A stretch of DNA of 24,433 nucleotides from a virus. The translations under genes were made by a program, and so were the position numbers. Each line of letters starts with the position of its first letter. Position 1 is the first letter of the stretch. Below are positions 10,617 to 13,992 of this stretch, in pieces. The notes under the pieces are model-generated. The model did not search any database and was not told where the DNA came from. It saw nothing but the letters and a program-made list of their open reading frames with translations. Location: the IMG/VR virus record IMGVR_UViG_3300042564_002264, positions 1 through 24,433 of that record; one strand, written 5' to 3'.

Positions 10617-10789
10617 CAGCATTGTCATCAGGTGCGCCATCGGTTCGTCGCATTGTGTCATCATCTCACCGCGCAGGGATGCAATCGCTTTGCAATCGCA
10701 GGCGGAGGCACTGCCTCGACCGCCAGAAATCAGAGCAGGTCGGCCCCAGCTGCAGCCAGACACCCCCACCCACCCAGTTTGCCCAGCTT

Positions 10790-10818
10790 GTGGGTATTTT
10801 ATATCTATATATACCCAC
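10790..10818. promoter_or_regulatory. Inverted repeat GTGGGTAT / ATACCCAC
   Basis: Two eight-base arms match perfectly and flank a 13-base spacer rich in TATA sequence. Arm centres are 21 bases apart, two turns of DNA, as for operators bound by dimeric regulators. As RNA it would be a hairpin with a large loop. It sits between the divergent early and late operons, where a switch would be expected. Confidence 0.45.
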
Positions 10819-10912
10819 TCAGCCTCACATTTTCCGCCAAAACAGTTTGCCTTCTTGGCCGACCCCCCATCCCCTGATATTGCAGCTGAACCGGGGGCTT
10901 GTTTTTTATGGG

Positions 10913-10926
10913 TTTAAAATTTTAAA
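10913..10926. promoter_or_regulatory. Perfect AT palindrome TTTAAAATTTTAAA
   Basis: A 14-base perfect palindrome made only of A and T, a few bases upstream of TATAAG (10935-10940) and of the structured leader. It could be part of a late promoter, or a site for an AT-rich-DNA binder such as the AT-hook protein encoded at 5134-5400 or host H-NS-type proteins. Palindromy in such low-complexity DNA is weak evidence. Confidence 0.3.
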
Positions 10927-10952
10927 TTTTGGGTTATAAGCATGTGGCGTGG

Positions 10953-10975
10953 GTGCGCGTGGGACTACAGCGCAC
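10953..10975 (+). other. Hairpin just upstream of the hammerhead
   Basis: GTGCGC (10953-10958) pairs with GCGCAC (10970-10975) across an 11-base loop, six perfect GC-rich pairs. It is the first of a series of stems in the late leader RNA. It may insulate the ribozyme's folding from upstream sequence. Confidence 0.45.
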
Positions 10976-10984
10976 ATCTAGCCC

Positions 10985-11048
10985 GGAACTTGAAACGCCT
11001 GATGATTGCCTGAGATGGCATGAAACCAAGAATGGTCGCGTGGAGTCC
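10985..11048 (+). ncRNA. Hammerhead self-cleaving ribozyme, type I
   Basis: Every core element of the hammerhead is present in order. Stem I 5' arm is ACGC (10995-10998). The core CTGATGA follows (10999-11005). Stem II pairs 11007-11010 TGCC with 11017-11020 GGCA, with loop TGAGAT. GAA is at 11022-11024. Stem III pairs ACCA (11025-11028) with TGGT (11033-11036), with loop AGAA. The cleavage base is C11037, then the stem I 3' arm GCGT (11038-11041). Stem I extends beyond an internal loop (TGAA/GG) through GGAACT with AGTCC (one bulge), as expected for loop-loop contacts with stem II. Cleavage is predicted between 11037 and 11038. One oddity is that the first stem II pair is a T-T mismatch (11006/11021) where G-C is usual. 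It lies upstream of the terminase operon on the coding strand. Confidence 0.85.
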
Positions 11049-11082
11049 TCCGATCCGGGGAACAACTGAGGACCTGATCCCC
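11045..11082 (+). other. Hairpin or pseudoknot after the ribozyme
   Basis: GTCCTC (11045-11050) pairs perfectly with GAGGAC (11068-11073). GGGGA in its loop (11057-11061) is complementary to TCCCC just downstream (11078-11082), so an H-type pseudoknot is possible. The first arm overlaps the outer part of hammerhead stem I (11044-11048), so the two folds compete. This structure could form after cleavage and protect the new 5' end. CACATTTTTAA follows, but the T run is weak as a terminator. Confidence 0.5.
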
Positions 11083-11104
11083 ACATTTTTAACCCGCGCC
11101 TACA

Positions 11105-11124
11105 CCCCCCCCCCCGGGGGGGGG
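11105..11124. other. C11G9 homopolymer palindrome
   Basis: Eleven C are followed directly by nine G, the most extreme low-complexity block in the window. It could fold as a very stable hairpin in RNA or DNA, and lies 86 bases before the first late start codon. It may equally be an assembly or library artefact joining two fragments. No gene crosses it. Confidence 0.6.
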
Positions 11125-11210
11125 CCGCCCTGATATGACCCCCCTTTGTTTTGATCTGCGGTTCCATAAAAATTTATATATTGTTTTAACTTGGATGATG
11201 ATTATAAAGG

Positions 11211-11750
11211 ATGGATATGGATTGGGATGATGACGATTTTGGGTTGGGTTCGCTGATCAGCGAGGATGCTGAGATTGCGATGCGGGATGACCGTGACTTG
11301 GTTTTTGCGCGTGAGTATGTGCGTTTGAAGGCGGTGAAGTCGAAGAACGCTGCGGAGCTGGCGTGTGTTCGCGCTGGGATTACGAATCCGGAATATCACA
11401 TCAAGGTAGTTGCGGAACGCCAGCTGGCGCGGGTGGAGGTTCAGCGGCTGATTGCTGAGGCTGAGACTTCCGGGCTGGTGATTGAGCGGACGGAGTACAC
11501 GCGGGATTTGTTTCTGGATGAGCTGCAGGCGGTTCATGAGCGGGCTTTGGATGCAAAGAACTTTACGAGCGCGATTAGTGCGGTGAAGACGCAGGCACAG
11601 TTGCTGGGGATGATGGATCAGACGCTGAATATCAATCACACGGTGACGGCGAAGGATCTGGATTTGCAGACGTTAAGGGCGATGGTTGCGGATCGGGCCA
11701 AGCCGGTGGCGGCGGTTATAGATGCGGATTATAGGGAGGTTGAGGGATGA
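11211..11750 (+). CDS. terS: Terminase small subunit
   Basis: The 179-residue protein recognises phage DNA and hands it to the large terminase. After an acidic start (MDMDWDDDDFGLG), residues 28-85 form a helix-turn-helix-like domain with the small-terminase pattern: FAREYVRLKAVKSKNAAELA, CVRAGITNPEYHIKVVAE, then RQLARVEVQRLIAEAE. The rest is helical (LFLDELQAVHERALDAKNFT, TQAQLLGMMD), as in oligomerisation regions. It directly precedes the packaging genes. Either ATG at 11211 or 11217 may be used; AAAGG has better spacing (six bases) to 11217. The assignment rests on pattern and position beside the large subunit. Confidence 0.8.
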   Translation: MDMDWDDDDFGLGSLISEDAEIAMRDDRDLVFAREYVRLKAVKSKNAAELACVRAGITNPEYHIKVVAERQLARVEVQRLIAEAETSGLVIERTEYTRDLFLDELQAVHERALDAKNFTSAISAVKTQAQLLGMMDQTLNINHTVTAKDLDLQTLRAMVADRAKPVAAVIDADYREVEG

Positions 11751-12007
11751 AGATTCACCAGTGTTTTTTGCGTGGGTTTGCGGGCGGTCTTATGGGCGAC
11801 AGCAGCGGGCTGCATATGCCGCTCACCATTGTCGGGGATGAGAACTCAATCACGCTGACCAAGGGTGAGGGCTTTGACGAGTGGTTGGCAGATGACACCA
11901 AGATTGTTCTGCACGACGATATTGAGACCACTTACACGGACCAGAACCAAGAGACGCTTCGCCGGATTGTGCTGGCATGGCTGCACGGCGAAGAGTTTGA
12001 GGGATGA
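11747..12007 (+). CDS. Hypothetical protein, 86 aa
   Basis: Begins MKIHQCFLRGFAGGLMGDSS, then LHMPLTIVGDENSITLTKGE and an acidic helix ending IVLAWLHGEEFEG. A beta-rich centre is likely. It is coupled to the small terminase by ATGA and lies between the two terminase genes, where phages often place small accessory proteins. I do not recognise it. Confidence 0.7.
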   Translation: MKIHQCFLRGFAGGLMGDSSGLHMPLTIVGDENSITLTKGEGFDEWLADDTKIVLHDDIETTYTDQNQETLRRIVLAWLHGEEFEG

Positions 12008-12180
12008 TATATATCCGCGACGATGGGCAGCTGATTCGCAATGGGATTAACGTGTACCCGCGTCGATCCAGCAGTGTTGGGTTTATTGTGGCTCTGGGTC
12101 GGTTCCGGTTTATGCTGAGGTATTCGCGGGTTTTGGGTCGTCTGTATTGTATTGTGGTGTGGTGTCGCGATGAACGCTGA
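12004..12180 (+). CDS. Small basic hypothetical protein, 58 aa
   Basis: Reads MIYIRDDGQLIRNGINVYPR, then RSSSVGFIVALGRFRFMLRY and a Cys/Arg-rich end IVVWCRDER. Its start makes an ATGA overlap with the previous stop, and without it a 162-base gap would exist in the operon. It is strongly basic. The stop at 12178-12180 lies inside the next gene's first codons (11-base overlap). No family is recognised. Confidence 0.6.
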   Translation: MIYIRDDGQLIRNGINVYPRRSSSVGFIVALGRFRFMLRYSRVLGRLYCIVVWCRDER

Positions 12181-12463
12181 TGGTGCTAAGAATATGCGAC
12201 GTATCGAGCGCGGATCGCATTGGGCGATAGGTCGTTATGTGATTGCTGAAACGCGCACTGTTGAGGGCGGCGATGGGCGGTATAGGGAGACGTGGACGCG
12301 GAGCCTGTTCCCGAAGAATCAGGTGCGGCACACTCTGCACAGACGAGCGCCATCGGGCTATTGCGTGGAGACGGGTAAGGTGAACGGGAGTTTTTCATCG
12401 AGCTGTTCGTTTTACGGCGCGCTTTGCAAATATGGCGAGTTTACGTGGGGTAGTTCTGAATGA
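12170..12463 (+). CDS. Hypothetical protein, 97 aa
   Basis: Begins MNADGAKNMRRIERGSHWAI, continues with YVIAETRTVEGGDGRYRETW, and has a Ser/Cys-rich stretch FSSSCSFYGALCKYG near its end. A beta-strand pattern is likely. The ATG at 12170 is chosen over the TTG at 12152, although the ribosome site is weak. It overlaps the large terminase start by four bases (ATGA). Curiously, both genes begin with the same 11 bases, ATGAACGCTGA. It is unrecognised. Confidence 0.65.
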   Translation: MNADGAKNMRRIERGSHWAIGRYVIAETRTVEGGDGRYRETWTRSLFPKNQVRHTLHRRAPSGYCVETGKVNGSFSSSCSFYGALCKYGEFTWGSSE

Positions 12464-13992
12464 ACGCTGACCTATCGATGGATGACTTGCTGGCGGAGCT
12501 GGTGGCCCGCGAGGAGGCGATGGCATCGTTTGCGGCGTATATTGAGTATGTGAGCGGGATGAAGCCGCCGCCGCACTTGAAGCTGATTTGCGACAAGCTT
12601 GATGAGGTTGCGAATGGTAAGATTCAGAGGCTGATGATTTCGATGCCGCCGGGGCATGGTAAGTCGTTTGCCGCGTCGCATTACTTCCCGGCCTATTACC
12701 TCGCGAAGAACCCGACGAAGAACGTGATCTTTGCGACGCACAAGCAGGAGCTGTCGGACAGTTTCGGTCTGAAGGTGCGTAACGTGATTAAGGGCGACGA
12801 ACATCGGCGCTTGTTCCCGGATGTGGGTATTAGTGCGGACAAGACGGCTGCGGGCGAGTGGATGACGACGCAGGCTGGTGGTTATCACGCGACTGCGGTT
12901 GGCGCGAACGTGACGGGTCGGCGCGGGGATATATTGATTGGGGACGATTTGCTGTCGGGTATTCAGGCGGCTGAGTCGGACAGTGAGCGGAACAAGTTAT
13001 GGGCATGGTACGGCGCGGATTTTTTCACGCGCCGTAAGAACAAGGACACGCCGATCATCCTGATTGGAACGCGCTGGCATCTGGGGGACCACATGGGTCG
13101 CTTGGATCAGGGCGAGCGGGATGGTGAGGGCGAGAAGTGGGAGCGGGTGATTTTGCCCGCGCTGGCGGTGGATAACGACATTTTGGGGCGAGAGCCCGGA
13201 GATGCACTGTGGCCGGAACAGTTCCCGAAAGAGGAACTGGAGAAGATCCGCCGCCAGCCTTCCACGACGAGCCGTATCTGGTCGTCGCTGTATCAGCAGA
13301 ATCCGGTTGTGGATGATGGTGGTATTATCGATCAGACGTGGTTTAAGTGGTGGCGGTCGCCCGATCCGCCGGAGGTGAAGTACGTTATACAGGCGTGGGA
13401 TACGGCGCTGACGGCGAACAAGACATCGGCGTATAGCGCGTCAACGACGTGGGGCGTGTTTGATGACGATAACGGGATACCGAACCTGATCCTGTTATCG
13501 GTGTGGCGCGACCGTGCTGAGTGGCCGATACTGCGGCGAATGGTGCAGCGGATGGCGACGGATTACAGGGACGATAACTATCGCACGCCGATCAAGGCAT
13601 CGAAGAACCGGATGCCGGATACGGTGCTGGTGGAGGCGAAGGCGAACGGTCAGATGCTGATTCAGGACTTGGGTCGTGCAGGAATTGTTGCAACGCCGTT
13701 TAATCCTGATAAGTTTGGTGATAAGATAGCGCGTGTTCGTTTGGTTACGGATTTGATCGAGAACGGGCGTGTGTGGTTGCCGGCGATGAAACCGGCGTAT
13801 GATCAGTTGAGGCCGTGGGCGCGTGACTTTATGGAGCAGTGCGTTCAGTTTCCAGCGGCTGATTCGAGGGACTGGGTTGATACGATGACGATGGCGTTTT
13901 TGCGGGTCAAACAGTCTGGGTGGGTTCACAATACAGAGAACCCGTATGAAGAGGTATATGACGTACCGCTTGAACGCGCATCGTTTTATTGA
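12460..13992 (+). CDS. terL: Terminase large subunit (packaging ATPase and nuclease)
   Basis: This 510-residue motor pumps DNA into the prohead and cuts it. Walker A is SMPPGHGKS (61-69), and the phosphate loop is followed by a motif FATHKQELSDSF. Walker B is DILIGDD (157-163), with IGTRWHLGD (202-210) as the coupling motif. The C-terminal RNase-H-like nuclease has Asp313 (IQAWDTA), Glu392 (VEAKANG) and Asp474 (DWVDTMTMAF) as the likely metal ligands. The arrangement is that of the Terminase_6 family used by many tailed phages. The gene is coupled by ATGA to the one before it and followed by the portal gene after 30 bases. Confidence 0.95.
   Translation: MNADLSMDDLLAELVAREEAMASFAAYIEYVSGMKPPPHLKLICDKLDEVANGKIQRLMISMPPGHGKSFAASHYFPAYYLAKNPTKNVIFATHKQELSDSFGLKVRNVIKGDEHRRLFPDVGISADKTAAGEWMTTQAGGYHATAVGANVTGRRGDILIGDDLLSGIQAAESDSERNKLWAWYGADFFTRRKNKDTPIILIGTRWHLGDHMGRLDQGERDGEGEKWERVILPALAVDNDILGREPGDALWPEQFPKEELEKIRRQPSTTSRIWSSLYQQNPVVDDGGIIDQTWFKWWRSPDPPEVKYVIQAWDTALTANKTSAYSASTTWGVFDDDNGIPNLILLSVWRDRAEWPILRRMVQRMATDYRDDNYRTPIKASKNRMPDTVLVEAKANGQMLIQDLGRAGIVATPFNPDKFGDKIARVRLVTDLIENGRVWLPAMKPAYDQLRPWARDFMEQCVQFPAADSRDWVDTMTMAFLRVKQSGWVHNTENPYEEVYDVPLERASFY

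Follow-up and report, generated by a model that had tools for sequence, protein, structure and literature searches.

The window analysed here is a stretch of 24,433 nucleotides of a virus (IMG/VR record IMGVR_UViG_3300042564_002264, positions 1 to 24,433), and all the features given below lie on its plus strand. A match of the covariance model R1 delimited a conserved RNA of about 140 nt at 10948–11087, composed of a half A, a hammerhead insert, and a half B. The next gene on its 3' side (11211–11750) is a probable small terminase gene, so named by its position alone, before the large terminase gene; its frame matched no entry of Pfam or PHROGs. Two copies of a 9 bp direct repeat, CCCTGATAT, were found on either side of the RNA (10872–10880 and 11128–11136), at the edges of the insertion. 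In addition, a self-complementary run of eleven C followed by nine G (11105–11124) lies just 3' of the RNA; this run is missing in the related locus L100, and may be either a strong hairpin or an artefact of the assembly.

The hammerhead insert (10995–11041) was delimited by a descriptor and by the family parse, and it is open at stem I, which is the type I topology. Its stem I pairs ACGC (10995–10998) with GCGT (11038–11041) and is followed by the core letters CTGATGA (10999–11005). Stem II (11006–11021) pairs TGCC (11007–11010) with GGCA (11017–11020) around the loop TGAGAT, and carries at its base, as first pair, the mismatch T11006·T11021. The segment 11022–11036 includes GAA (11022–11024) and stem III, in which ACCA (11025–11028) pairs with TGGT (11033–11036), including the A11025–T11036 pair, and is closed by AGAA. 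The predicted cleavage base is C11037, with the cut expected between C11037 and G11038. The invariant letters CUGANGA, GAA, A15.1–U16.1, and H17 are therefore all present and in order, just where the sequence-only reading had placed them. When both strands of the window were scanned with a descriptor that has stems of at least four pairs and a free first stem II pair, this was the single site found, and 1,500 dinucleotide shuffles of the window gave no site, whereas the descriptor that required the first stem II pair gave no match on either strand. The U-U pair of the window counts as a mismatch known in natural hammerheads, the Watson-Crick form being absent: a U10.1–U11.1 mismatch has been reported among them and is the best tolerated one, and the U3–A8 covariation has likewise been described as natural and active (PMC3088659). 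Together with the descriptor and the covariation in the family, predicted folds support the three stems around the core, all of them appearing in the minimum-free-energy structures of 10985–11048 and of 10948–11087. When 10985–11060 was folded, another structure was preferred, with a stability no greater than that of shuffles (z −0.13), so the folds predicted for this stretch differ with the length of the segment.

The Rfam search that had been proposed as a check returned no hammerhead, neither at the gathering score anywhere in the window nor in permissive scans (E ≤ 10) of 10800–11250 and 10985–11048. Similarly, 17 loci carrying relatives of the RNA matched only tRNA and tmRNA families at the gathering score, with no hammerhead among them, and the scaffold formed by halves A and B matched no family of Rfam 15 at this score in the same 17 loci or in the window. 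Among six loci scanned at a lax threshold, the best was EhYP, with 28.7 bits for RF00163 against a gathering score of 34, and Karkharias reached 20.9 bits for RF00008 against 48.5. The gathering threshold is a detection rule and not a biological definition, and by the Rfam test alone the hammerhead would have been discarded. The lack of an Rfam match in the window also speaks for a chance resemblance to a hammerhead, but the empty result in 1,500 shuffles and the dozens of relatives with covarying stems rule this out, leaving it a vanishingly small probability. By these comparative tests, the motif of the window is read as a hammerhead, of a kind already known.

The hammerhead occupies the middle of a larger structure. 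Half A (10948–10987), as defined by alignments, contains CGTGGG, the hairpin P1 (10953–10975; GTGCGC at 10953–10958 with GCGCAC at 10970–10975), the stretch ACATCTAG, and the 5' strand of helix P2 (CCCGGA, 10982–10987), which pairs with TCCGGG (11054–11059). Half B (11039–11087), also defined by alignments, contains in order CGTGGAG, the 5' strand of P3, the 3' strand of P2, the stretch GAACAACT, the 3' strand of P3, and the 3' strand of a further helix, Pb. P3 (11045–11073) is a pseudoknot between GTCCTC (11045–11050) and GAGGAC (11068–11073), and the 5' strand of Pb, GTGGG (10959–10963), would pair with CCCAC (11080–11084). The scaffold thus consists of a pair of interlocked pseudoknots, one formed by P2 and P3 and the other by P1 and Pb, and its letters outside the hammerhead are as conserved as those of the hammerhead. 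Two statements of the sequence-only reading change in this light. Its interval, 10985–11048, folds with all three stems and yet covers under half of the whole RNA, and the pairing it took as a continuation of stem I does form, between CCCGGA and TCCGGG, as the scaffold helix P2. Model R1, built from 30 other members of the family (excluding the window and L100, and including L114 and L120, whose letters are close to those of the window), matched the window with 120.4 bits and E 5.1e-36, a value to be taken as rough, as the tool itself states. On this comparative evidence, the RNA of about 140 nt is a larger fold of which the hammerhead is one optional piece.

Covariation was measured on 62 dereplicated members from a first set of 71, with 372 cells per helix. 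P1 was paired in 99.5% of the cells, against 71.4% after shuffling, with 102 two-sided changes; P3 in 98.1%, against 73.7%, with 75 such changes; and P2 in 100%, against 95.3%, with 14. Far fewer two-sided changes appeared in the shuffles for the three helices. For Pb, which joins the loop of P1 to the 3' end, the mean score was 19.1 with the own partner and 10.6 with swapped partners, and relative to all 3,782 swapped pairs, 54 of the 62 members lie at the 95th percentile or higher. The window is among the weakest in this respect: its five Pb pairs score 14, which is equalled or beaten by 19% of the swapped pairs, so that this helix is supported by the family and weak in the window. In 30 aligned members with a hammerhead, pairing was complete over the 748 lettered cells of stems I and III and of P1, P2, and P3, against 82% when shuffled and 35–41% when slid, and 127 two-sided changes were observed; on one measure, that of further pair types, 23 of 500 shuffles did as well as the alignment. 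Stem II was excluded from this count because of its variable length; in L100, it shows TGTC/GACA as a compensatory change for TGCC/GGCA of the window. The predicted fold of the scaffold is shown by this covariation, and the identity of the hammerhead, as proposed from the window letters, finds support in 59 related copies and in the covarying stems of these 30 aligned members.

A blastn search with 10700–13000 against phage records gave three matches, all of them over 10974–11075 (74%, E 9e-6), in the Arthrobacter phages Karkharias and Constance, the latter with two records. Their copy has a G-C first stem II pair, and its three stems differ from those of the window by compensatory changes. 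Exact half-B patterns were found in 27, 40, and 93 IMG/VR contigs (80 of the 93 listed), a half-A pattern in 65 contigs, and an exact half-B pattern in three records of a genome collection covering 84,980 species, which points to an RNA that is mostly a phage feature, the collections and patterns being different ones. A plasmid search gave two short matches only. Whole-genome searches with R1 found no carrier besides the starting genome among 398, 398, and 80 genomes, a weak negative given that at most 7, 7, and 39 candidates per genome were scored among the matches listed, under strict filters. Two phages with tested hammerheads, PaP3 (positions 1–45000 of 45503) and Bcep176 (1–44800 of 44856), were rejected as members, as they showed no scaffold by motif and no R1 match better than E 0.05; phiSASD1 gave 15 bits only and was left uncounted.

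The final set contains 89 distinct members, 86 from viral contigs or phage records and three from genome contigs; the hosts are very different bacteria, those named including Arthrobacter, Mycobacterium, Microcystis, Enterobacter, Pectobacterium, and Escherichia. In 79 of them the halves follow the order A-B and in 10 the permuted order B-A. Members were kept only if P2 and P3 form in the register used; L100 is among the 89 and the window is not. The wider census had 96 rows, from which seven were dropped: L016, L071, and one of the two rows of L225 as false or incomplete matches to loose patterns; L172, L175, and L181 for a P3 of fewer than five pairs in register; and L235 for a shift in the register of P2. 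Two of those dropped, L172 and L235, carry hammerheads. In addition, 10 of the 33 loci of one later batch gave no row, either because the A+B pair had already been seen or for lack of a half-A match, and one row of L195 that joined two tandem copies was dropped. On this contig of 4,160 bases, two tandem copies of the RNA were found, each of them with its own hammerhead.

A hammerhead was present in 59 of the 89 members (50 A-B and 9 B-A) and missing in 30. For a copy to be accepted, the parser demands TGA, the final A, GAA, and either C or T at position 3, together with a standard 15.1–16.1 pair, at least three of the four stem I pairs, and two pairs each in stems II and III; these features are thus partly selected, whereas no condition was set on positions 7, 8, or 17 or on the first pair of stem II. 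CTGANGA was found in 58 of the 59 copies, the remaining one being that of Gaia (TTGATAA), with a paired change at positions 3 and 8. A15.1–U16.1 was found in all 59, where the parser demanded GAA and some standard pair. At the free position 17, C was counted 44 times, A 12, T 3, and G never, and at the free position 8, G 58 times and A once. The first stem II pair was G-C in 29 copies, A-A in 21, U-U in 6, C-A in 2, and A-G in one, so that the T-T of the window, already suggested to mark a variant, has company in 30 of 59 relatives likewise lacking a Watson-Crick pair there. These are 30 natural hammerheads that break the rule for this pair. Such irregularity, and the absence of the whole arm in 30 of the 89 members, would suit a three-way junction that serves as a structural arm only and does not cut. 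This is, however, a very improbable explanation, as G is absent from position 17 in all 59 copies and present at position 8 in 58 of them, neither being required by the parser, and Gaia keeps its 3–8 pair as U3–A8, a change that is natural and active according to PMC3088659. A hammerhead that cuts is preferred over such an arm: cleavage, as predicted from the conservation of the core, is very likely across the family and somewhat less so, though still quite likely, after C11037 in the copy of the window.

The hammerhead behaves as a removable insert. In the first set, a hammerhead was parsed in all 41 linkers from A to B of at least 40 nt and in only 2 of 20,500 shuffled ones; in the final set, it was parsed in 50 of 51 such linkers, with L228 as the exception. 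The A-B members lacking a hammerhead have linkers of 3–6 nt in 21 of 29 cases and of 15–46 nt in the others, and the consensus of both halves is nearly equal with and without it. The 3' strand of stem I overlaps the fixed scaffold letters CGYGG. Since 30 of the 89 members carry no hammerhead, the cut cannot be required for the job of the scaffold. In the permuted order, seen in L171, in seven loci, and in the Escherichia coli locus L207, half B and the hammerhead come first and half A last, with a closing helix that joins the two ends and a loop that closes the other side. The seven loci are alike over half A and the next 60 bases. In these permuted RNAs, the predicted hammerhead cut would presumably form the 5' end of the RNA. 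A tree of the joined halves, of about 80 nt, was weak (43 of 86 nodes at 0.8 or above); on it, hammerhead presence changes 21 times against 25.6 in shuffles (lowest 18), and the order of the halves 4 times against 9.7 (lowest 6). At most, these counts suggest that the order of the halves is inherited and that gain or loss of the hammerhead is frequent.

The permuted type of L207 was found in 15 of 5426 E. coli genomes. L207 is a lambda-like prophage in which Q and the holin gene flank the RNA and are encoded on its strand, and this RNA fills a site at which lambda has a short loop only, which makes its role testable in a model system. In lambda, at 44787–44862 downstream of Q (L211, 1513–1588), a hairpin was observed whose arms are nearly those of the helix that closes the permuted RNAs of E. 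coli prophages, with a different loop, of 37 nt, in place of the RNA.

Concerning the origin of the window copy, close relatives that share its late module offer 22 distinct junctions without the RNA, and the junctions of relatives show a single copy of the CCCTGATAT stretch or a variant of it. Among 104 loci related through the terminase, several of them overlapping stretches of one contig, the insertion recurs only in L100, with an R1 match of E 1e-32; no other match at E ≤ 0.1 was found in the scan of 100 of these loci (the next best, L039, having 11.5 bits and E 0.58), and none in L101–L104. By comparison with these junctions, the window copy of the RNA is an insertion. Genes for HNH endonucleases occupy the same intergenic site in L029 (1686–2411, with a weak AP2 match too) and in L078 (3126–3623), which identifies the site as a cargo spot. 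The edges, the empty junctions, and the HNH genes at one site fit a cargo module with a role of its own. The nine-base direct repeats, the clean empty sites, the HNH gene at this site in L029 and L078, and an HNH gene annotated downstream in Karkharias and Constance could also be explained if the RNA were a selfish insertion module that phage HNH nucleases may mobilise and whose spread the hammerhead would serve. We consider this decidedly unlikely: to judge from the covariation and the fixed unpaired letters, the RNA has a function of its own, the repeat could be a pre-existing sequence, and none of 30 frames scanned (one the gene of the window, the others neighbours of the RNA in other members) matched an HNH family, the frame of L107 not being the annotated HNH gene. 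A cargo module whose RNA has its own function is thus preferred over a selfish one.

The sequence-only reading had proposed that, in this phage, the packaging and head mRNA is shortened at its 5' end by the hammerhead. The position in the window agrees with it, as the RNA lies on the plus strand some 170 bases before the first late gene, and so do the RNA of L207, between Q and the holin gene, and that of L191, between the large terminase and portal genes, both on the strand of these genes. It lacks support as the general role, given the 22 empty junctions with the same late module and the members found in tRNA arrays, beside integrases (L153, L165), or flanked by late genes of the other strand (L142, L146, L208). 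In EhYP, the RNA lies between capsid and tail genes, and across the members no fixed place ahead of late genes on their strand was found. Tailoring of a late leader is not the general role in view of these tRNA-array, either-strand late-gene, and Q-holin settings, and for this phage it is unlikely. A simple sigma-70 scan of 10700–11260 recognised no promoter, and a promoter and terminator scan of the same stretch found no more than in shuffles.

We instead regard the motif as the hammerhead domain of a discrete phage RNA of about 140 nt, cut by the hammerhead, with its halves docked and acting as a stand-alone RNA, a reading that we hold as likely. In most members found, a type I hammerhead is inserted in the loop joining A to B, and after transcription it would cut, in the window after C11037; half A would then end in a 2',3'-cyclic phosphate and half B begin with a 5'-OH. 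P2 and Pb would keep the halves docked as a two-piece RNA after the cut; both this docking and the action as a separate RNA are what we infer. The RNA appears to be cargo that was acquired as a separate module, in the window by insertion next to the terminase genes, and most probably works as a stand-alone phage RNA rather than as the leader of one operon. The persistence of the scaffold without a hammerhead makes the cut an accessory step, perhaps for release of the RNA or relief of strain. Tolerance of both permutation and nicking suggests a compact two-piece core, which might be catalytic in its own right or serve for protein docking beside phage tRNAs.

Hammerheads of phages and prophages had been reported by 2011, with unclear functions (Perreault et al. 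2011, PMC3088659). A host RNA is now identified for one group of them, with natural members having and lacking the hammerhead. The insert resembles the type I hammerhead (RF00163, PMC3088659) in its core of CTGANGA, GAA, A-U, and H17, its three stems, and its open stem I; in contrast to it, the insert here is removable from a larger covarying RNA, 30 of its 59 copies have a non-canonical first pair in stem II, and its stem I overlaps conserved scaffold letters. PaP3 and Bcep176, phages tested in PMC3088659, differ from the phages described here in having no scaffold match. As in the hammerheads with a stem I–stem II pseudoknot described in that article, a pseudoknot lies near stem I; however, in P3 the segment that separates stem I from P2 has its partner further downstream rather than in loop II, and this pseudoknot is kept in members without any hammerhead. 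P3 may replace the tertiary contact between loops I and II. The non-circularly permuted hammerheads of PMC10085705 likewise present a natural permutation of a structured RNA with a hammerhead; here, it is the scaffold that is circularly permuted and the hammerhead has the ordinary type I order. A literature search by letters and by topic, with most subscription journals and bioRxiv outside its reach, found no description of the scaffold; the letters led to a single article, on an unrelated matter. The hammerhead part is thus of a known kind, and the A+B scaffold fits no family found. We lean towards an undescribed class of phage RNA, with interlocked pseudoknots and fixed unpaired letters, linear or permuted, with or without a nicking hammerhead.

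With regard to HDV-type ribozymes, no match to their Rfam families was obtained in the 17 member loci or in the lax-threshold scan. The strand order of the HDV pseudoknot differs from that of the scaffold. The RNA shares with the HDV-like theta ribozymes a location near phage tRNA genes (PMC10879173); unlike them, it lacks an HDV-type match in these loci and the scaffold also occurs away from tRNAs. Searching within the fetched stretches only, 33 of the 89 members were found at 500 nt or less from a tRNA gene, all 33 on the same strand. Such proximity was found in 16 of the 30 members without a hammerhead and in 17 of the 59 with one (Fisher p 0.036, uncorrected for relatedness). As a guess, the RNA may protect or act as a decoy beside phage tRNAs. 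In Karkharias (L107), sequences in which ARAGORN calls no tRNA flank the RNA at 2400–2470 and 2630–2680, and by eye they are degenerate and tRNA-like, with T-arm letters.
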